From the IMG/VR virus record IMGVR_UViG_3300030103_001965, positions 1-23,047 of that record: a stretch of DNA of 23,047 bases. One strand, 5' to 3'. How positions within the stretch are numbered: position 1 is the stretch's first letter; each line of letters starts with the position of its first letter. Positions 284-22,729 of the stretch are shown here, piece by piece. Below the pieces are notes generated by a model. That model was not told where the DNA came from. It searched no databases and saw only the letters and a list, made by a program, of their open reading frames with translations. Source of the stretch: a virus. The translations under genes were made by a program, and so were the position numbers.

Positions 284-327
284 AAAAACAAAAGAATAGC
301 CTATAGGGTGCTAAGACCCTATAGGCT
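284..327 (-). terminator. Rho-independent terminator for the minus-strand small gene
   Basis: A perfect 12-bp stem pairs 298-309 (AGCCTATAGGGT) with 316-327 (ACCCTATAGGCT) around a 6-nt loop. On the minus strand the hairpin is followed by a T-rich run covering 297-284 (ATTCTTTTGTTTTT). It starts 9 nt after the stop codon of the 47-aa minus-strand gene. In the + direction the hairpin is followed by TAAGTGTTG, which is not a U-tract, so minus-strand termination is the better reading. Confidence 0.72.
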
Positions 328-336
328 TAAGTGTTG

Positions 337-480
337 CTAGTGTGTAACAGTATAAAGAAACCACATAAAACATATGTATGCAGCAATAGCAGATGAAAAA
401 GTAATCTTCATTAATAATAGTGTGTTTTGTAGTTCTTTGATTTGTTTGTCAGTCATGTGTTTTTTGTATTTGTCGTTCAT
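337..480 (-). CDS. Small single-span membrane protein (47 aa)
   Basis: The minus strand has an ATG at 480-478 and a TAG at 339-337, giving 47 residues. A Shine-Dalgarno AAAGGA (493-488) lies 7 nt upstream. Residues 1-20 are polar and Lys-rich (MNDKYKKHMTDKQIKELQNT). Residues 21-45 form one long hydrophobic segment that includes ITFSSAIAAYICFMWFLY. The short C-terminus ends in His. A hairpin terminator follows within 10 nt, which together with the ribosome site argues for a real gene. A 79-aa + strand frame covers the same bases but has no such signals. Topology would be N-in with a cytoplasmic helix. Small phage proteins of this shape include holins, spanin parts and superinfection-exclusion factors, but nothing seen here decides between them. 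The gene points away from the structural operon. Confidence 0.62.
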   Translation of the reverse strand: MNDKYKKHMTDKQIKELQNTLLLMKITFSSAIAAYICFMWFLYTVTH

Positions 481-540
481 GGTATGTTCCTTTTGTGGTA
501 GGTTGTTAGGTTATATCGCCAGTGTGGAATGGAAGGGGGT

Positions 541-582: not shown

Positions 583-684
583 GAACCACCGAACAGACCA
601 CACGCACGATTAACCGGCTACCACGTACAAGGTTTTACATGTGCCTAAATACAAACATCTTGCATACATGAATAATTTACAGTA

Positions 685-710
685 TTGTATATTTAAGCAT
701 CTAATATAAT
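685..710 (+). promoter_or_regulatory. Weak candidate sigma70 promoter upstream of terL
   Basis: A perfect -10 hexamer TATAAT occurs at 705-710. The best -35-like word is TTGTAT at 685-690, with only 14 bp between them, which is shorter than usual, and there is no extended -10. It points towards terL about 105 nt downstream. In A/T-rich DNA such a -10 can arise by chance. Confidence 0.25.
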
Positions 711-758: not shown

Positions 759-790
759 GGCTAGTGTATAGGGGACATGATACACTAGCC
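759..790 (+). promoter_or_regulatory. Leader stem-loop just upstream of terL
   Basis: An 11-bp perfect stem pairs GGCTAGTGTAT (759-769) with ATACACTAGCC (780-790) around a 10-nt loop, AGGGGACATG. A short T-run (ATCTTTT, 791-797) follows, and the terL start is at 817. It could terminate or attenuate upstream transcription, or stabilise the mRNA 5' end. The loop holds a purine-rich AGGGG, and its ATG reads ATG-ATA-CAC-TAG, a three-codon frame. Confidence 0.5.
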
Positions 791-816: not shown

Positions 817-2334
817 ATGGAATCAATAGAACAACAAATTGCACGGGTATTTAGTGACCCTTTTGAGTTTATCCAGAGATTAAAGATAGTGGATAAGTCT
901 GGTAAGGTTGTACCTCTTAGACTCAATGCAGAACAAATAGAGATTATTAACGCCTTACAAGAAGGAAGGGATACCCTTGTACTCAAGCCTAGACAAATAG
1001 GGTCTAGTACTGTTGTTTGTGCTTACATGTTTTGGAAGGCCTATACAGCAACAACACCACTAACATTAATAATACTATCGTATAAGATTGCTAGTTCTAA
1101 ACACTTGCTACATATACATAAAAGGTTTTATCAGTATCTACCAGAAGGATTAAAGAGACCATTGGATACAGACAATACAACGGAACTATCTTTTAAGAAT
1201 GGAGGACGTATTATAGCAGCCGCAGCAACACAAGCAGGTGGATTGAGATCTCAGACTTGTAGCATGCTGCATATATCGGAGTATGCATTTGCAGAGAATC
1301 CAGAGGAACTCAAGGCTACTGCAATCAGTGCATTGAATGATGGTCAGTTGGTAATAGAGAGTACGGCTAATTATTACAACGATGCATTGTGGAAGGAGAT
1401 ACACAAAAGTCAGATAGGAGAGGCAGATTGGAACTATCTATTCTTTCCATGGTATAAGCATGTAGAGTACTGTATGGATGACATACCAATCACACTAACG
1501 GACGAAGAGACAAAACTACAAGAGGACTTTGGTTTAACGTTAGGTCAGTTTGCATGGAGGAGGGAGAAGATAAGTAAACTAGGATGGGAAAAGTTTATAC
1601 GAGAATATCCGATGACCTTGGATGAAGCGTATCGTATAAGTGGCAATACATATTTTACGTATGATGACTTTGAGAATGTAGATGTATTGACTGTAAATCC
1701 AACAGAGTGGGTAACGTTTGAGGAGCCAAATGCAGACGACACATATGCGATAGGGGTAGATGTTAGTGGTGGTGTAGGTAGGGACTATGCTGTAGTGTTT
1801 TGTGTATCTAGGATGACGTTACAGCCAGTCTGTATTTACAGGTCCAATACGGTAAGTCCAGTGCAATTAGCAGACTACATATATGACATGAGTGTTACGT
1901 ACAACAACGCATTGACATTGGTAGAGAGCAACAACTATGGTCTGGCGACGATACAGGAATTGGTGCACCAGGGTTTTTATAGGTTGTGGAAGGACGCGCA
2001 TACTGGTAAGGACTTTTTGACAACGAGTAGGAGTAAGCCGTTGTTGTTTGAGAATTTGAAGAAGGGGATACAGACTGGTGCGATACGGTTAATAGACAAT
2101 GTAACAATGACAGAGTTGCGTAGTATTACAGTAGACGAGAAAGGTATATTAAGGTTTGGTGAAGATGTAGAAAGTCACTGTGACAGTGCAATGGCAATGG
2201 CATTGGCATATTGGTGTTTGAATAGTGTAAAAATAAAACAGAGTGCATTTTTACCAGAGTGGATTATAAGTCAAAAGGCAGAGCAGTCATTGCGAAGCAG
2301 TGGTGTCAGTCCACATTTGCATAGGAGATACTGA
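817..2334 (+). CDS. terL: Terminase large subunit
   Basis: This is the ATP-driven DNA packaging motor and headful or end-cutting nuclease, which docks on the portal. The N-terminal ATPase shows a Walker-A-like KPRQIGSST (residues 57-65), a Walker-B-like MLHISE with the catalytic Glu at 155, and the coupling motif ESTAN (181-185). The C-terminal RNase-H-like nuclease shows GVDVSGG with Asp315, VESNNYG with Glu370 and HCDSAMA with Asp456. These are the expected three acidic metal ligands. The length of 505 aa is normal for the family. The start is supported by AGGT 7 nt upstream in CCAGGTCAATACATG. The stop overlaps the next ATG by one base (TGATG), which implies coupling. Arginine codons are mostly AGA/AGG (17 of 24 by my count), unlike the capsid gene. 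No small terminase subunit is evident in the window. Confidence 0.96.
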   Translation: MESIEQQIARVFSDPFEFIQRLKIVDKSGKVVPLRLNAEQIEIINALQEGRDTLVLKPRQIGSSTVVCAYMFWKAYTATTPLTLIILSYKIASSKHLLHIHKRFYQYLPEGLKRPLDTDNTTELSFKNGGRIIAAAATQAGGLRSQTCSMLHISEYAFAENPEELKATAISALNDGQLVIESTANYYNDALWKEIHKSQIGEADWNYLFFPWYKHVEYCMDDIPITLTDEETKLQEDFGLTLGQFAWRREKISKLGWEKFIREYPMTLDEAYRISGNTYFTYDDFENVDVLTVNPTEWVTFEEPNADDTYAIGVDVSGGVGRDYAVVFCVSRMTLQPVCIYRSNTVSPVQLADYIYDMSVTYNNALTLVESNNYGLATIQELVHQGFYRLWKDAHTGKDFLTTSRSKPLLFENLKKGIQTGAIRLIDNVTMTELRSITVDEKGILRFGEDVESHCDSAMAMALAYWCLNSVKIKQSAFLPEWIISQKAEQSLRSSGVSPHLHRRY

Positions 2335-6222: not shown

Positions 6223-6648
6223 ATGCCAAAAGGTAAGCGCAACGTAAACAAAATTATTGTACATCATTCTGCTTCTCCGCAGTCTACAACAAAAGAACAG
6301 ATATATGATTGGCATGTCAATGGCAATGGTTGGTCAGACATTGGGTACCATTACATCGTTCTGGGTAACGGTGAAGTGGTATCTGGTCGCCATGTAAACA
6401 AAACGGGTGCACACTGCAAAGGTCACAACAAGGGTAGTATTGGCATTTGTGTTACGGGAAATACGTCTGTTGAACCCCCTAATACACAACAGTTACAATC
6501 GTTGTGGGGTAAAATAAAAATGCTTTTGGAAGAATATAATCTAGAACGAAGTGACGTGTATGGTCATCAAGACTGCGGGACAACCGAATGCCCTGGTGAC
6601 TATTTATACGAATTTGTTAAACAGTTCAAGGCTGGACTACTTGCCTAG
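6223..6648 (+). CDS. N-acetylmuramoyl-L-alanine amidase (T7 lysozyme type)
   Basis: This zinc enzyme of the Amidase_2/PGRP fold cuts the bond between N-acetylmuramic acid and L-alanine in peptidoglycan. Zinc ligands correspond to H14 (IVHHSAS), H115 (YGHQDCG) and C123 (TECPGD). The catalytic tyrosine is Y42 (DIGYHYIV). The T7 residue Lys128 is replaced by T121, as in many PGRP-type amidases. At 141 aa it is close to T7 lysozyme (151 aa), with no signal peptide and no cell-wall-binding domain, so export would need a holin or virion delivery. The start follows GAGGA at 6214-6218. Its place between scaffold and capsid genes is unusual and suggests late expression or virion association. T7 lysozyme also inhibits T7 RNA polymerase; nothing here shows that activity. 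Confidence 0.93.
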   Translation: MPKGKRNVNKIIVHHSASPQSTTKEQIYDWHVNGNGWSDIGYHYIVLGNGEVVSGRHVNKTGAHCKGHNKGSIGICVTGNTSVEPPNTQQLQSLWGKIKMLLEEYNLERSDVYGHQDCGTTECPGDYLYEFVKQFKAGLLA

Positions 6649-6779: not shown

Positions 6780-7796
6780 ATGGCTATTTCGAATGATTTG
6801 CTATCGTCAACCTTGTATTCCATCCGTGATGGCGAAGTTGACGAACTATTTCAAAAAGTGGCATTTCTTGACCACGCTAAACGTTACAACGGTATTGAGT
6901 ATGAAGATGGTGGTATTAAAATCCAACGTCCTCTCAGTATTGCTGAACACTCTCAAATCACTAACCTTCCTACTGGATACGAAGCAGTAAACCTTGCTGT
7001 CAAAGACGTATTGCAACCTGCTATTTATGAGTGGGCTGACTTTGCTGCACCTATCGTAATCACCAAAAAAGAAGAGTTGGAAAACAAAGGCGAGAAGGCA
7101 ATCGTAAAGATTGTTGAAGCCCGTATGCGCTCAGTAATGGGTATGCTTCGACGTGAACTTAACAAGCAGATTCTTGCTGGTAGTTCAACTGTTTTGACCA
7201 CTGTAAACACTTTGAACGGTGACGTTGCTGGTGGATTTTTGGAAGCAGAAACTAAGGCAAACCAAAACAACACTGTCGGTGGTATCTCTAAGACAACCTA
7301 TCCAGTAAACGGTTGGTTGAACCAGGTTGCTGACATTCAAGGTGCTTTTGGTACAAACGGTATACTTGGAATGCAACAAATGGCAATTCAAGCAAACACT
7401 GTAACTCACATGGGTGAGATTCAATGTGTGTTGTTGTCTGAAGCAGCAATGGCTAACTATCGTCGTGCTATGTTCCAACAAGAGCGTTACATCAACGAAA
7501 CCACATTAGATGGTGGACGTATGCAACTTGCTTTTGGTGGTGCTGTATGTGAACAAGACCTTGAACTTGGTTTTAGTTACAACTCCGCTGACTTTGGTAA
7601 CGCACCATTGTCTGGTTACTTCCTGAACTTTGACGGTGTTAAGTTGTGCATGCACAGAGATGCTGACTTCGCTGTTTCACCTTTCGAGCACATTTCTGGA
7701 ACTACTGCACGGGCTGCCCAATTGTATGTTAAAATGCAATTGATTGCAGACCACCTCGGTTCTTGTGGTGTTCTCTTTGACGCAGACACTTTCTAA
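6780..7796 (+). CDS. Major capsid protein
   Basis: The 338-aa product is identified as major capsid protein from its position after the scaffold, its length (T7 gp10A is 345 aa) and its composition. It starts MAISNDLLSSTLYSIRDGEV and has a long Lys/Glu/Arg-rich spine-like helix (ITKKEELENKGEKAIVKIVE, about residues 93-115). A glycine/asparagine-rich middle follows, then a beta-rich region ending in LGSCGVLFDADTF. An HK97-type fold is expected. There is no obvious protease-cleaved prodomain. AGGT at 6770-6773 is the ribosome site. Codons favour CGT (9 of 13 Arg), GCT, GGT and AAC, a pattern of strong expression that differs from terL. A dedicated promoter lies upstream and a strong terminator after the next gene. 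Confidence 0.9.
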   Translation: MAISNDLLSSTLYSIRDGEVDELFQKVAFLDHAKRYNGIEYEDGGIKIQRPLSIAEHSQITNLPTGYEAVNLAVKDVLQPAIYEWADFAAPIVITKKEELENKGEKAIVKIVEARMRSVMGMLRRELNKQILAGSSTVLTTVNTLNGDVAGGFLEAETKANQNNTVGGISKTTYPVNGWLNQVADIQGAFGTNGILGMQQMAIQANTVTHMGEIQCVLLSEAAMANYRRAMFQQERYINETTLDGGRMQLAFGGAVCEQDLELGFSYNSADFGNAPLSGYFLNFDGVKLCMHRDADFAVSPFEHISGTTARAAQLYVKMQLIADHLGSCGVLFDADTF

Positions 7797-12747: not shown

Positions 12748-13413
12748 ATGAGTAAAATTGCAAATAAATACTTTGAAGGTGGGCAAGCACCAACGGCAAC
12801 CGAACTAAATGCTGTATATAATAGTGTTGCTGGTGATAGTGTACAAAATGTAAACTTAGAAACAGAATGGGCGCAACGTAAACATTTTAGCGACTCTAAT
12901 AGCATTACATCTTTATTTACATTTGATTATGACGGCACCACAGAACAAACTATATCTAGCACCTCTTTTACAACTATAAACAATACAGGGAGCAACCCGA
13001 GTCAAGTACTTCCAAGTTACACAACACATGGTCATGTTGTAGTAAGGGTACATGCAAGTGGATTGGTTACTACTTGCTCATTAGATGTAGACGATGGTAA
13101 TGGAACAAGTGGTGAAATTAACAGAAATACTTATGCTTTTCGCCTTTTTATGACCACAAACAGTACGACTGTTGACTTGGCAAATTGCACATACAGTTTT
13201 ACTGAAAAGGCAGCGATTACGACAGCAGAAGCTGGTTCTGACATGGGTATACGAGATTCAATACAATTTCGTACGTTTGCATTTAGTGGACTGTTTACAC
13301 TAGCACCAAATAATACTATTGAAAAGATTGAACTGCAAGCATGTGTAGGTCATAATGGAAACACATTTAACGTAGAACATAATCACATACAATTAATTGT
13401 AGTGGAGAACTAA
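12748..13413 (+). CDS. Virion accessory protein, paralogue of the next gene (221 aa)
   Basis: The N-terminus contains the phrase GGQAPTATELNAVYNSVAG, of the G-x-x-LTA-x-x-LN type common at the start of phage fibre or whisker proteins. The remaining 150 residues read as a beta-sandwich. The stretch SSTSFTTINNTGS followed by HGHVVVRVHASG parallels the next protein. AGAGGT (12738-12743) lies 4 nt before the start and overlaps the previous stop. The stop shares one base with the next start. It is likely a virion surface protein. Receptor binding is possible but unproven. Confidence 0.7.
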   Translation: MSKIANKYFEGGQAPTATELNAVYNSVAGDSVQNVNLETEWAQRKHFSDSNSITSLFTFDYDGTTEQTISSTSFTTINNTGSNPSQVLPSYTTHGHVVVRVHASGLVTTCSLDVDDGNGTSGEINRNTYAFRLFMTTNSTTVDLANCTYSFTEKAAITTAEAGSDMGIRDSIQFRTFAFSGLFTLAPNNTIEKIELQACVGHNGNTFNVEHNHIQLIVVEN

Positions 13414-14123
13414 TGGCATTTACCAAACCATTTACATATGTAGACGGATCTGTCTTAACTGCAACTAATCACGCATTGAATGAAGATGCACTGAGGGAAT
13501 ATGTCAACCAAGAAATCATTGCTGCTGACGTATCTGTGGATACCTTTGTTGGAGAGAGTATTGCTTCCGCTCGTTTTATTTCTTCTGTACAAACTGGTGA
13601 CTTTGTTTCTAAAACTATTCAGGGTGTATCAAAGTTACGACTACCACAAGCATTTAGTTGGTTCACCTCGACCACTAAGAGCAACAATCAAACAAGCGCT
13701 ACTGTTGAAGATTTCCAAACTTTAAGCAATACGGGTTCTGAAGTAACAATCACACATGCAAACACAAAAGTGATGATTACATTTTATGCAAAAGCGTTTG
13801 GTAGCGTGAATAGCACTGTAACTCGCAGTAAAGGAAATGGTCTTTGGGATAACAAATTTTTATTAGTGTATGAATTGAATGGATTGATTACCAAGTATAT
13901 AGGAACAAAGGCATATGTGTTTGAAAGCAGTAAAACTGCTACGTCATTAGGCTCAGTAGATCCAGATGCTAAGGGTAACGCCTGTGGTCATCGCAGCATA
14001 ATGATTACTCGTATGCTAACATTAAGTCCAGGCAGATATAAGTTTTCAGTGGCAGTCAATGCAAAGGTTGAAAAAGGCCAGATTAACTGTCAAACATTTA
14101 CGATAGAAACATTTCATGTGTAG
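13413..14123 (+). CDS. Virion accessory protein, paralogue of the previous gene (236 aa)
   Basis: The N-terminus DGSVLTATNHALNEDALREY repeats the G-x-x-LTA-x-x-LN theme. A short linker follows and then a beta-sandwich with SATVEDFQTLSNTGS and NTKVMITFYAKAFGS, which line up with the previous protein, ending in QINCQTFTIETFHV. GGAG (13404-13407) precedes the ATG, which shares a base with the previous stop. The two genes are probably an old tandem duplication. Both lie between the nozzle and the ejection proteins, where T7 has no equivalent. A role in host contact is inferred only. Confidence 0.7.
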   Translation: MAFTKPFTYVDGSVLTATNHALNEDALREYVNQEIIAADVSVDTFVGESIASARFISSVQTGDFVSKTIQGVSKLRLPQAFSWFTSTTKSNNQTSATVEDFQTLSNTGSEVTITHANTKVMITFYAKAFGSVNSTVTRSKGNGLWDNKFLLVYELNGLITKYIGTKAYVFESSKTATSLGSVDPDAKGNACGHRSIMITRMLTLSPGRYKFSVAVNAKVEKGQINCQTFTIETFHV

Positions 14124-16612: not shown

Positions 16613-19600
16613 ATGGCACAGACAGGTTTATTCAGTGAAAACTTAAGCAAAGATCTAGAAAAGTTTGGTGTTATAAATCCACCTACGGACCTAGAGTTGG
16701 CAGAGTTACCAGTTGATTTACAAAGACAATTAGCAGAGACTATTAAGGATACTGCTGTTGCTAGTGAGGTGACAAAAAGGACACCAGAAAAACGGGAAGA
16801 GAAACTTAAAAAGATATACACCATACTAGGTCAAGCACAAGAACCAAAGTATGGTAGTTATTCAGAACGAGCAAAGAAAACTAAAGAACCACCACCACCA
16901 CTAGACACTATACCAACAGGTGCACCGCCCATCAAAGCATCTACCGCACTAAAAACACAACAGACTGTTAGTGGCAGACCAGCGCAAACTCTCGCAGATG
17001 TTACACTAACTATTCGTACTAAAATGCCACAAACGTTGGCTACGATGATGACTCCCGATGGGCAACGTTTGTTTACAGACGAAGAGATACCGCAACAAGT
17101 TAGGGCATTTGAGTCATTGTACGAACAGTTGCAAGTTGAGAATGCTGCCTATGCAGGTGTTGGTGCTCCACGAAAAAATGAAGTAGAGTTGTATGAACAA
17201 GCACTGGACGAGTTTGTTAACATTTTGTCTGGCAACATACCTGTGCTATCAGAGGAAGAAGTAGACCCTGAAATGCAAGGTTTGACAGCAAGTCCATATG
17301 TCAATGCATACTCAAAACAAATCGTGCCTGGTTCTATTCCAGACTACACACCGGCACAACTTAAATACTTTAAAAAACTTAATAAAGAGAAAGTGGATAA
17401 GTATGTCAACCGCAACTACGAGCAGTTTCTACAAACAGCACCAAGAATGTTTTACGTCAAAAAAAATGGCATTGAAACCACAATTAGTCAACCAGTATTA
17501 GAGCACATTGTATCTAGTCCAACTGCCGCTATTATTTTCTCACCAGAGATTGACGATGAGATTAGACAACAGTATGACGATGTGTATTTCCAACTTCCAG
17601 CTGTGAGGCTAAACTCAGGTGATTATGGTCTCGATGTATATGAGGCGAGAGCAATAGCAAAGGTCAAAGCAATCAATGATTTACAAGTAGGTCAATGGTT
17701 TCAAGATCCAGACCAGAAGGCGCGTATACTAGCAGATGTAGACAAGTTTAAAGACGTAGGCATCATGGAAACTAGGACACCGTTTGGTGGTACAGGGGAA
17801 AGTAATTTTGCAGAATACGCACGTTTGGTCATGTCACCCTTAACAGCGTTTGCGAGTATTACACAAAGCAAAGCAGAGAAAGAAGTCGCAAAGGTTATTG
17901 GTGCTGGTGCTGAAGTATTAGAGTCAGTAGGCATATTAAATCAACTGCCAGAGGGTGAGTCATACTACGACCCAGATATGGCATCTAGAGTTCGACTACA
18001 GGAACGTAAAGAAGAAGCACCGTTGTACACTGGTACACTAACTATGTTTGATCAAGAGATTGCACCAGACAGCATACTTGGTGAGATGGTGGATGCAGTC
18101 GCTAGGAACCGTGGGCATCTAGATTTTAATACTGATTTGGCTGAAGGTTTGAATATAGATGGTGCAACAAAACTAGGTATGCAAGCAGCTGGTCTAACTG
18201 CGGACTTGTTATCACCAGACATGGCAGTGATTGCAGCAGCAGTAAAAGGTACAAAAGCAGGTGCCAAAATGTTCCAAGTGCAAAAGCAAGTAATGGATGC
18301 CACGAACTGGAAAGCGGCAAACGAAGCACTGAAGCAACTAGAGCGCACAGCAATAAGCGAAGTATTTGATGAAGCAAACCTTATAAGTTTGACTTCACAG
18401 TTGGTATCGCCAAAGGTAGCAAAGAAACTAAAAGATACTTCGTACGGAGACATACGTTTGTATATGTCTGATAACATGGCACAAAACTTAGAGGCACGAG
18501 CACTGTTGCAAAATCAGGACGTACTGGGTCTGGTAAATGCTGGATTGCAGGATACCGTTTATGCCAAAACATTTTATGAATTAGGTGGTGCCCAACAAGC
18601 GGACGAAGTCTTTTTTGCCAAGATGAAAGAATCAAAAAATATACCAGACATGATAAAACAGTATGATGAAATGTCTAGTATTTTAAGTGATGCTGACAGT
18701 ATTGGCTATGACGAAGCGGTAAGGCTCTCAAGAAGAGCGAAATCTGACATTAAAGCATCTACATACAAGCAACTTGACGATATATATAATAGGGCGGGCA
18801 AGCAGCCAGATGTAAAGGATGTATCTGATCAAATTAACAATGCACAACGCATGTTGGCTACTGTTTATGGAAGGGCTATGTTTTTCGAAACTAGCCCAGT
18901 CATTGGTGGTCTGGACAACATTGTTGCTATAACACGCAATACTTACGGTACTCCACAGGCTAGGGCAGACCTTTTGGCTACGGCGAAGTTTACTAAACTT
19001 GCTACAAGCATCAAAGAGATACGCAAGATGCAAGTGTCTAGACAAGTTAAGCCAGTAGAGTTTGCTTCATACAACTTGTACGGTGCTGATAGGGTTGCAA
19101 AACAGGGTCGCGTTGAAACGATGTATGACCTAACCAACATGACTGCAGCAAACAAAGGTATTTTAGAAGAAAGCATCTTAGAACTAGACGCACCACAAAC
19201 ATACAAGAATTATCTCATGAATATGGTGCGGAATCAAAATCGCATATTTGAGTCCGATATAAATCAGCTTGTAATGAAAAACCGCGACGATGTTGCTATT
19301 GGTCGCAGAGATGTGTTTACCACAGAAAACATTAATGCCTTACCTAAAAGTCAACAGAAAAAGTTGCTTGAACCCGCTAACTCATTGGCACGCATCGATT
19401 GGCGAAACGGATTCTTTGGACAAGCGTTTGACAAAGCGGATGACATGTTTGGCATAGGTGACTTATTTAAAACTAAGAAAGCAGCAGAGAACGCACAAAA
19501 GAACCTTACCAATGACGTTCAAACATTTGAACAAGCACGAATGTTAAATGAAATACAAAAGGAAATGGCACAGCTACCGCTACAGCTGAATAGAGATTTT

Positions 19601-22600
19601 AGAGAGTTACTCAAGGGTGATGTTTCTGTACGTGCTCGTTATGTGCCTGACTCAGATACAAAGTTAAGCAAGTCTGAAGTTATGGCTTCTCTAATTGTAG
19701 GGCAAAGACAGGTTGGTGCTGATAAGGTTGTGCAAGAGGATGAACTTGCAAATACTCTGAAGTGGATGTTGGATCGATGTTTTTACCAAAAGCGTGGGGG
19801 TATAGCAACACAAAGTGCAGGTGATGACGTTACTGGTATGTCTAGTATTTTAGATGCCGACATCTTTACATCAGAAGCGCGTGAGGAGATAGGTAAGTAC
19901 TTAGAGGCTATAGCCAAAGATGCGACAAACAACCCAAGGGTTATGTGGCCTAGGTTTCAGCAAGTAGTTAATGATTTAGATGAGATGCTAGCAAACAATG
20001 AACCTCTTCCAATATTGTTAGATGATGGTAGTGTACAAGAGGTGTTGATAGTTAAGGATGGTTTGCAGTACACAAATCTAAGAACTGTGTCAAATGTAGA
20101 ACTTGAAAACATTATGGAAGAAATGACAATGGGTGCCTACTTTCATGCTGAAGGAAGAAGGATAAATCATCGATATTTAGTCGATGTAGTTGACAAACAA
20201 ATGGAGCAACTTAACATTGAAAACATTTTACCAGGTTCTGGCATTAAACAAGAAACATTTGAAAGAGTGACAAGAGAATCATCTGAGTTTGTGTGGAACA
20301 AAAATAACTACAGTTACGAAAAGAAATTAGAACTGGTAGAACAATCAATGAAGCAAAGCAATGTGCAAGACATATTGATAGATGCAGGTGATGAAGTAGA
20401 TATAGACACAACAGATATATTTACAAGCATGTACAAAGAGTTTGATCAATACATAATAAAGAGTTTTGCAGACATAAAACAAGAGGTCAAAAATATAAGT
20501 CAAAGCATAGACGAAGAACTTGCTGACAATTTGGTTACTATACGAAAGAAGTATGAAACTGAACTTGATGAAAAATCTAAGCAGTTAAAGACTACACTGA
20601 ATACCGACGAACTTCAAGAAATCAGTACAGTCAAGTTAGATGCAACAAACAAGATAAAAAATGTAAGATATAGAGGTGCAGCGGCAAAGGCTATAAGAAC
20701 TGTAAGAGATACCACTATTAAAAGCATAAAGAAAAAGTACACGCAGCAACGCAAAGCCTCTCTTAAATCATTAGAAAAAGATATAAACGAACTCGCGGCA
20801 CGCGAGTTGCAGAGTGCAAGAAAGGAAGCACAACTTAAAAAAGAATTTAACCTAAAGCAAATAGAAGAGGGTGAACAACAGGAACGTGAATTTTTTACTT
20901 TAAACCTGCAAAACAAATCACCTACAGAGGCTTTAGAATTCTTTGTTAAAGAGTATGGAAAGGAAGTGTCAGGTGACTTCAATACTGTTCTTAACAAACT
21001 TAAAAGTGAAACTATGTCAGACGAGACAATAGACAAAATCTCTAGATTTGCACTTGACTATGTAACAACAGCACTAAGAAAAGGGGGTGTAGACACCGCC
21101 GTAGCACCAACACTAAATCAACTAGACGATAAAATGAACGCGTTGTTTAAACCAGGCAATGAAGATTTTGGGATAGCCATACTTGGTACAGAGTTTGAAG
21201 CACTTCGTAGAGACTATGCCAAGATAGGCATACAAGGTGCGCAAGAAAACATAAAGAAGGTACTACAATCTGAACCAGGCGTAGGCACATTTTTATATAA
21301 GTTTTTTAATGTACATCAACCTATTTTTTACTTTTTCGTGTTGGGAGCAAGAACAAGGTTTCACGGTATGAACTTTTTAACTGCACCCTTTTTGATTTAC
21401 CAAACACTAGGTAGGTTTACAAATCCTCTTAAAGGTATGGAAGTGGTCTTAAAGGGTGGAAGAATAGGTTCTAAAGGTGCAGACGATGTGGCTGTGCGTA
21501 GTGCAGATGGAATGACTTTTACCAATAGGCAAATCTTTGAGCGTATCGAACGTAGTGGTGTGAAATCAGAGTACAGTTTTATTCAGTCAGTATTTCAAGA
21601 TGGAACCCTTCTTCGGTACATGAAGAACTATGAAAACGCAAATGTTGGTTTTGGTAAAAAGTTTTACGACAACCTTATGAGTTGTGTTGACTCTATAAAC
21701 TCCATTGGTACGCAAACAGACATGGCATGGCGATCATCAGTATTTGTTGATGCCATTAAAGATGGTAGCAGTGTAGAGGAAGCAACTGATTTGGCTCGAC
21801 GTTCATTGTTTGATTACAATGACCTATCTGATTTGGAGCGTAAATATGTTATGAGTGCTACAGTGTTTTGGAATTTTCAAAGACAAAACATAGGTGGGTT
21901 CATAAAGGCATTGTTGGACCCCAAAAAGTTGGCTAGATTCATGCGCATGTACAAACTTAAGCGCGATATGAACGCCATATTTGCAGACAACAATGATGGT
22001 AAGCGTATACCATATGAGATGTATATGCCTGAATACACACAAACACGTATCATATTTGGTCAACAACAAGGCATACAAGACAATCGCCAGTTACTGATGT
22101 CACCTTCCATACCTGGACTAGAGGCATCTATGTTTTTAACAGATGTTGCTAGTAATCCACTTAGTACTGTACAAGAAAAAGTAAACCAGTTGTTACGTCC
22201 AGATCTTCGATTGCTGTTGGGCACCAAGCAAGACAAATACAAATCCACAATTGTCAATCCAGAATACATCACAAACTTGGCTAGAATAAACGACGACCCA
22301 CAAGTCATTGCAGACAACCTATCATTATTGATGGGTACAACAATCGAACCAAAGTATGTTGGCACAAATACGGTTGGTAACATTAATGGATATACTTATC
22401 CACTGGATGACTCACAACAAAAGACATATGCGTATTTCCAAGATGCGTTGGCGTTGATCGGTGCAACAACTGCCATCAATGACTACTCCCGCATATTAAA
22501 TCCGAAAGGCACAACATACGAAGGTCTGTCGCCTTTACAACGTATGCTGGCACTAACAGGTGCCTTGACACCTGCTAGACAAAAGAGTATTGTCAATCAA

Positions 22601-22729
22601 CAGATACTAAATATAAAACGTCAAATAAGCGAACTTCGTAAAATGCAAAACCTAGAACGGTCTAGAGCACAAGGTGATATAATCAGAGGGGTAACACCTC
22701 AACAAACAAATCCATCCGAACAGAGGTAA
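16613..22729 (+). CDS. Giant internal virion (ejection) protein, 2038 aa
   Basis: One uninterrupted frame fills over a quarter of the window. Visible regions are a charged N-terminus with a PPPP linker (about residue 90) and a small-residue hydrophobic patch GLTADLLSPDMAVIAAAVKG (about 525-545). A long Lys/Glu coiled coil lies at about 1284-1430, and an aromatic hydrophobic segment VHQPIFYFFVLGARTRF (about 1565-1600). A conserved-looking C-terminal stretch, LFDYNDLSDLERKYVMSATV then FWNFQRQNIGGF (about 1730-1765), recalls the C-terminal helical domains of very large phage proteins (LPD38-like; tentative). No lysozyme or polymerase motif was recognised. By position it equals T7 gp16, the ejected transmembrane channel. 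A tape measure is less likely because no tail-tube genes are present. The ribosome site is weak (GGA at 16604-16606). Confidence 0.72.
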   Translation: MAQTGLFSENLSKDLEKFGVINPPTDLELAELPVDLQRQLAETIKDTAVASEVTKRTPEKREEKLKKIYTILGQAQEPKYGSYSERAKKTKEPPPPLDTIPTGAPPIKASTALKTQQTVSGRPAQTLADVTLTIRTKMPQTLATMMTPDGQRLFTDEEIPQQVRAFESLYEQLQVENAAYAGVGAPRKNEVELYEQALDEFVNILSGNIPVLSEEEVDPEMQGLTASPYVNAYSKQIVPGSIPDYTPAQLKYFKKLNKEKVDKYVNRNYEQFLQTAPRMFYVKKNGIETTISQPVLEHIVSSPTAAIIFSPEIDDEIRQQYDDVYFQLPAVRLNSGDYGLDVYEARAIAKVKAINDLQVGQWFQDPDQKARILADVDKFKDVGIMETRTPFGGTGESNFAEYARLVMSPLTAFASITQSKAEKEVAKVIGAGAEVLESVGILNQLPEGESYYDPDMASRVRLQERKEEAPLYTGTLTMFDQEIAPDSILGEMVDAVARNRGHLDFNTDLAEGLNIDGATKLGMQAAGLTADLLSPDMAVIAAAVKGTKAGAKMFQVQKQVMDATNWKAANEALKQLERTAISEVFDEANLISLTSQLVSPKVAKKLKDTSYGDIRLYMSDNMAQNLEARALLQNQDVLGLVNAGLQDTVYAKTFYELGGAQQADEVFFAKMKESKNIPDMIKQYDEMSSILSDADSIGYDEAVRLSRRAKSDIKASTYKQLDDIYNRAGKQPDVKDVSDQINNAQRMLATVYGRAMFFETSPVIGGLDNIVAITRNTYGTPQARADLLATAKFTKLATSIKEIRKMQVSRQVKPVEFASYNLYGADRVAKQGRVETMYDLTNMTAANKGILEESILELDAPQTYKNYLMNMVRNQNRIFESDINQLVMKNRDDVAIGRRDVFTTENINALPKSQQKKLLEPANSLARIDWRNGFFGQAFDKADDMFGIGDLFKTKKAAENAQKNLTNDVQTFEQARMLNEIQKEMAQLPLQLNRDFRELLKGDVSVRARYVPDSDTKLSKSEVMASLIVGQRQVGADKVVQEDELANTLKWMLDRCFYQKRGGIATQSAGDDVTGMSSILDADIFTSEAREEIGKYLEAIAKDATNNPRVMWPRFQQVVNDLDEMLANNEPLPILLDDGSVQEVLIVKDGLQYTNLRTVSNVELENIMEEMTMGAYFHAEGRRINHRYLVDVVDKQMEQLNIENILPGSGIKQETFERVTRESSEFVWNKNNYSYEKKLELVEQSMKQSNVQDILIDAGDEVDIDTTDIFTSMYKEFDQYIIKSFADIKQEVKNISQSIDEELADNLVTIRKKYETELDEKSKQLKTTLNTDELQEISTVKLDATNKIKNVRYRGAAAKAIRTVRDTTIKSIKKKYTQQRKASLKSLEKDINELAARELQSARKEAQLKKEFNLKQIEEGEQQEREFFTLNLQNKSPTEALEFFVKEYGKEVSGDFNTVLNKLKSETMSDETIDKISRFALDYVTTALRKGGVDTAVAPTLNQLDDKMNALFKPGNEDFGIAILGTEFEALRRDYAKIGIQGAQENIKKVLQSEPGVGTFLYKFFNVHQPIFYFFVLGARTRFHGMNFLTAPFLIYQTLGRFTNPLKGMEVVLKGGRIGSKGADDVAVRSADGMTFTNRQIFERIERSGVKSEYSFIQSVFQDGTLLRYMKNYENANVGFGKKFYDNLMSCVDSINSIGTQTDMAWRSSVFVDAIKDGSSVEEATDLARRSLFDYNDLSDLERKYVMSATVFWNFQRQNIGGFIKALLDPKKLARFMRMYKLKRDMNAIFADNNDGKRIPYEMYMPEYTQTRIIFGQQQGIQDNRQLLMSPSIPGLEASMFLTDVASNPLSTVQEKVNQLLRPDLRLLLGTKQDKYKSTIVNPEYITNLARINDDPQVIADNLSLLMGTTIEPKYVGTNTVGNINGYTYPLDDSQQKTYAYFQDALALIGATTAINDYSRILNPKGTTYEGLSPLQRMLALTGALTPARQKSIVNQQILNIKRQISELRKMQNLERSRAQGDIIRGVTPQQTNPSEQR

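Follow-up and report, generated by a model that had tools for sequence, protein, structure and literature searches.

The compact minus-strand unit at positions 284-480 of the window (the whole stretch of DNA analyzed, 23,047 nucleotides long) looks like a moron-like slot for swappable early-type accessory genes and not like a lysis gene. In the reading preferred here, to which a probability of about two in three is assigned, the unit is a self-contained, exchangeable moron-like cassette that lies where the late operon, running rightward, diverges from a leftward unit, and that encodes an early, host-acting membrane peptide. What the initial annotation of this unit had missed is the exchangeability of the cargo and a folded element located between the small open reading frame (ORF) and terL.

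The window comes from a 23 kb IMG/VR virus record of a marine phage. Within it, terL (817-2334, plus strand; a match to phrog_2) opens a rightward structural operon; a soluble amidase is encoded at 6223-6648 and the gene for the major head protein starts at 6780. The operon is closed by a 2038-codon gene (16613-22729, plus strand) that has no PHROG match and, judging by position only, probably encodes a large internal virion protein. Overlapping the gene at 13413-14123 in a different frame is a hydrophobic frame of 74 aa (13501-13725, plus strand), which has a Shine-Dalgarno (SD) site and stays open in three other phages; it may be a gene in its own right, or its openness may simply follow from the conservation of the main gene. 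The first 8 kb of the window showed no nucleotide match to annotated phages, TerL is less than 30% identical to those of the best-listed cultured phages, and a search for this TerL in bacterial genomes found none. Relatives were gathered by TerL and portal scans of IMG/VR, which yielded about 120 loci, some of them on records of 28-35 kb. To the left of the cassette lie rightward genes, namely a conserved gene for a protein of about 100 aa and GP88 (PF17338), and farther left, leftward genes of 40-250 codons make up the other arm of the genome.

The small gene and its expression signals

The gene (337-480, minus strand; start at 480, stop at 337) consists of 47 codons, with the translation MNDKYKKHMTDKQIKELQNTLLLMKITFSSAIAAYICFMWFLYTVTH. 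The SD site AAAGGA (488-493, minus strand) stands 7 nt ahead of the ATG, in the wider start context AACCTACCACAAAAGGAACATACC, which is like that of the leftward early-type genes. The stop codon is followed by 9 nt and then by an intrinsic terminator (284-327, minus strand) composed of a 12-bp stem, AGCCTATAGGGT-cttagc-ACCCTATAGGCT (298-327), and the T-rich tail ATTCTTTTGTTTTTT (284-297). The initial annotation had described the ORF, the ribosome site, the hairpin and the tail exactly so, in every detail. Among the terminator-like sites of the first 2.6 kb (three, vs 1.4 expected), the one at 298-327 has the longest stem, with 12 pairs, and a fold z of -2.7. A scan for minus-strand promoters of the cassette, which covered sigma-70-type sites, found no consistent one.

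Both hydropathy and AlphaFold, which models a single helix over residues 11-46 (mean pLDDT 83), predict one membrane helix in the product, as would be expected of a holin, which has at least one, and of the small membrane proteins of type I toxin systems. Neither PHROG nor Pfam gave a match, so that none of the holin families in them is matched either. Homologues were not found in annotated phages, a scan with the alignment of the relatives of the 47-mer added no further ones, and a fold search with the predicted helix returned nothing significant; thus, sequence, alignment and fold searches yielded no relative of known function. In the search among related phages that the initial annotation proposed, diverged relatives in the same frame and position were found on the contigs L053 (35% identity), L018 (26%) and L019 (23%). 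These relatives and the 47-mer share the motif MxxKYxKxLTDxQxKxL, and third codon positions vary most between the 47-mer and its distant relatives; in the two cargo families with enough sequences, pN/pS is about 0.2-0.8, with few informative sites.

A slot with exchangeable cargo

A minus-strand small ORF is found at the same junction upstream of terL in eleven contigs, including the window, and each of these ORFs opens with an SD site and ATG just beyond the conserved folded element. At the divergent position beside terL, which the initial annotation suggested checking for conservation, the cargo varies between relatives or is absent. Per locus, 0.4% of dinucleotide shuffles yield an ORF of 37 or more codons with an SD site at this junction, and such an ORF is present in 10 of the 10 cassette loci tested. 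A strong minus-strand terminator, one of the features that define morons, follows the small ORF in 11 of 11 cassettes, and its stem contains five compensated pairs (nine sequences compared); alongside ORF-less elements, the minus-strand terminator is weak or absent. That the frame arose by chance, and that the hairpin is a fortuitous terminator or one with no connection to it, could be argued from the many hydrophobic chance frames on the minus strand of the region and from the small number and divergence of the relatives of the 47-mer. This is highly improbable, given that the SD site, ATG, ORF and terminator recur in 11 contigs with different ORFs, that residues are conserved in the same-place relatives and that no terminator of similar strength accompanies the ORF-less elements. 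The recurrence, the 0.4% chance expectation, the compensated terminators and the conserved same-place relatives bear out the view, already taken in the initial annotation, that this is a real accessory gene.

The cargo comprises relatives of the 47-mer (window, L053, L018 and L019), three other single-span types, namely a second family in L010, L016 and L017 and further ORFs in L009 and L027, and two soluble, non-membrane proteins in L007 and L014, all on the minus strand. In L003, L006, L008, L012 and L015 (TerL 94-96% identical), among others, there is no ORF at the slot. The TerL tree, with 11 loci that carry the cassette and 23 that do not, requires at least seven gains or losses of the cassette, all of them forced by well-supported branches, so that the cassette, as expected of a moron, appears as an insertion variably present in close relatives. 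The cargo type does not follow TerL: the window has that of the TerL-distant L053, L018 and L019, whereas the TerL-closer L017, L010 and L016 hold the second family. In L027, the cassette adjoins an ORF-less element in a tandem arrangement, which would be expected if cassettes insert beside the folded element.

The cargo also has links to early genes. Many of the leftward genes carry the start context AACCTACCACA-GGAGTAAACC, which is common to the cassettes as well; CCTACC also occurs at the start site of terL, so that the context is not confined to leftward genes. The leftward operon of L056/L294, where the folded element is undetectable, begins with a gene homologous to the second cargo family. 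The soluble cargo of L007 matches phrog_33188, homologues of which belong to the early region of Autographiviridae (T7-like phages); in Klebsiella phage vB_Kpl_K48PH164C1, the homologue is flanked by an ocr-like gene on one side and by the genes for the kinase and RNA polymerase on the other. Cargo exchange, the T7-type early family and the leftward operon of the cousin phage together point to a moron-like slot for early-type genes. Judging by direction, start context and homologues, the cassette would be transcribed leftwards early in infection, like the other leftward small genes. Its own terminator would be useful because, if not stopped, the transcript would continue as antisense RNA through the rightward genes at the left, and stopping it there is the role envisaged for the hairpin. 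The 47-aa product would reside in the host inner membrane and act on the host, in takeover or in the exclusion of other phages. Host-membrane action early in infection is, with moderate confidence, the most likely class of function for the 47-mer, and superinfection exclusion, also named in the initial annotation, or modification of the host membrane is possible.

The same evidence bears on the proposal, likewise made in the initial annotation, that the protein is a holin or a lysis regulator. A lysis function of the 47-mer, as a holin, an antiholin or some other partner of the amidase (6223-6648), would agree with its size, its single helix and the solubility of the amidase of the same phage, and a cargo of another family marginally matches the holin family phrog_6918 (E = 0.097). 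An indispensable lysis gene should, however, be kept, and this one is missing or replaced in close relatives: the slot is empty in at least five of them and holds soluble proteins in L007 and L014, which leaves a lysis role unsupported. The leftward direction and the start context of the early-type genes also disagree with it, and there is another small membrane protein with broader conservation, so that a lysis function of the 47-mer is quite unlikely. This other protein, of about 36 aa, is a different single-span protein; most genomes of the group encode it on the rightward strand, with GP88 and the ~100-aa gene as its neighbours on either side (e.g., L008:4870-4968 and L288:2832-2942, both plus strand), with the pattern MNxDxxxDxAIxxM...FCxxYxPxxxRW. 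It occurs in cassette-bearing (L007, L009, L014, L017, L019, L053) and cassette-free (L003, L008, L012, L020, L062) contigs alike and is a better candidate for a lysis or membrane protein than the 47-mer. As a slot in which single tiny genes are exchanged, the cassette offers a way to gather peptides that act on the host from marine phages not yet in culture.

The folded element and its surroundings

The conserved structured element (505-623; about 128 nt) adjoins the small ORF and consists of covarying helices; in the window, the predicted fold reaches about 490-632 and pairs the ribosome site of the 47-mer gene. Across 33 copies, 25 of 33 pairs show compensatory changes, and the covariation score is 0.373, vs 0.119 in shuffles and at most 0.098 with slid partners. 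Because the 33-copy alignment was fitted to the model, a MAFFT alignment of the twelve ORF-less copies is the cleaner test: in it, 13 of 33 pairs are compensated, a number reached by no shuffle, and a model built from these twelve copies alone finds the copy in the window (E = 1.6e-11). The covariance models of Rfam 15 gave no gathering-score match in 15 relatives and only chance-level hits in the window, and a search of the literature for structured RNA beside the terminase found nothing that fits. With its 25 covarying pairs and no Rfam 15 match, the element is a concrete candidate for a new switch, a testable phage RNA or DNA switch near packaging genes. Readings of it as attC-like, retron-like or a self-cleaving ribozyme were dropped because inspection by eye showed none of the defining motifs.

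The element was always found upstream of terL and in a single orientation; each record has one such locus, which in L027 comprises two copies in tandem. It is commoner than the small ORF and persists where the latter is absent. Mostly, it stands ahead of the first rightward late gene, whichever gene that is: in the window this is terL, in L009 and L020 it is the ~100-aa gene, and in L025, L028 and L043 yet another gene; the exceptions are L032 and L035, in which a leftward ORF intervenes. An extra rightward gene between the element and terL extends from about -811 to -150 in L025, where its product begins MNIYTAALPNRACQDYIDRVYPSMRYML, and from about -664 to -5 in L043, both counted relative to terL.

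The frequency of the element, its single locus per record and its strong covariation are what would be expected if it were the main object, as an RNA of either strand or as a DNA site for packaging or replication, and the ORF its passenger. Such a view is compatible with the gene being real, and searches of TerL relatives at a greater distance (L031 and L056, with TerLs 53% identical) did not detect the element, so that packaging in the wider group can do without it; a mere passenger role of the ORF is possible, on the doubtful side. The exchangeable cassette remains the preferred reading of the unit, and the element probably helps to control the divergent region, as RNA or as DNA. Tentatively, at somewhat less than even odds, it represents an undescribed class of phage structured elements, RNA or folded DNA, which stands at the point of transcription divergence and anchors swapped early-type genes in a family without close cultured relatives.

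As regards the strand, G.U and A.C are equally frequent when all pairs are counted; a recount without three weak pairs favours the plus strand, a skew that is not relied on because greater conservation of one arm alone could produce it. In most copies, the better fold is that of the plus strand, and the terminators suggest the minus strand, but only at copies with the small ORF. A candidate late promoter, TTGCAT-N17-TATTGT (660-688, plus strand), lies between the element and terL and has the same place and spacing in about ten relatives, each single site being weak vs shuffles; given this promoter-like site, the element need not be part of the terL mRNA, as a 5' leader would be.

The pairing of the ribosome site also suggests a unit akin to a type I toxin gene, in which the site is locked in a structured leader and freed by processing or by a regulator. 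The product is small and single-span, a very stable leader fold pairs the SD site in the window, L009, L010, L016 and L017, and tisB, for which PMC7708055 describes a sequestered ribosome site, is a precedent. SD accessibility in longer leader segments (0.02-0.44) nevertheless overlaps that of ordinary genes of the window (0.01-0.86), two of the cargoes are non-membrane proteins, no antisense antitoxin RNA was identified, and the structured element, which may act from either strand, persists without the ORF. A toxin of this type is accordingly unlikely.

Several further features surround terL. A hairpin with the invariant loop GGGAC (759-790, plus strand) precedes it; 7 of the 11 pairs in its covarying stem show compensatory changes in ten phages, and a T-run behind several copies makes it terminator-like in some relatives. 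Attenuation or antitermination in the late operon is a possible role for it. Positions 1-240 of the window contain degenerate TGCTG-N6-CAGCA repeats behind the conserved ~100-aa gene; in many relatives, these repeats lie to the left of a conserved CGTTAGGCGGG motif, and in some their place is taken by a GTTTCGGTGTTTC-type repeat. They could be a packaging or replication site. The adjoining ~100-aa gene (L009:5204-5515, plus strand; -797 to -486 before terL) has no Pfam or PHROG match and, by position, could encode the small terminase subunit.

Comparison with known systems

The packaging RNA of phi29 is a compact structured element of a phage. The element described here is likewise compact, similar in length and close to a packaging gene; it differs in having no Rfam match to pRNA or to any other family, in accompanying a TerL of phrog_2 and in being known from sequence, not as a transcript or a motor-bound RNA. 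With the mRNAs of type I toxins such as hok and tisB, the unit shares a small single-span product and a stable predicted fold around the ribosome site in several copies; unlike them, it has no identified antitoxin RNA, it also takes soluble cargoes, and the element occurs without an ORF.

The class I early genes of T7-like phages located between gene 0.3 and the RNA polymerase gene are very small, variable and probably host-acting. The cassette resembles them in being very small, variable and probably early and host-acting, and the cargo of L007 is homologous to a gene found there. Here, in contrast, there is one gene per slot, cut off from the leftward operon by rightward genes, and the cargo of the window itself has no T7 homologue.

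The remaining comparison is with the morons of tailed phages, a term introduced by Hendrix, for which criteria are given in PMC2920897. Unlike morons, the cassette has no recognized promoter of its own, its slot has a conserved structured element next to it as an anchor, it shares its start context with leftward genes of the phage itself, and the phages of this family are not established as temperate. The likeness to morons is both in the cassette, a single small gene with its own terminator placed between phage genes, and in the slot, which is present, absent or replaced in close relatives and serves as a hotspot for different genes.
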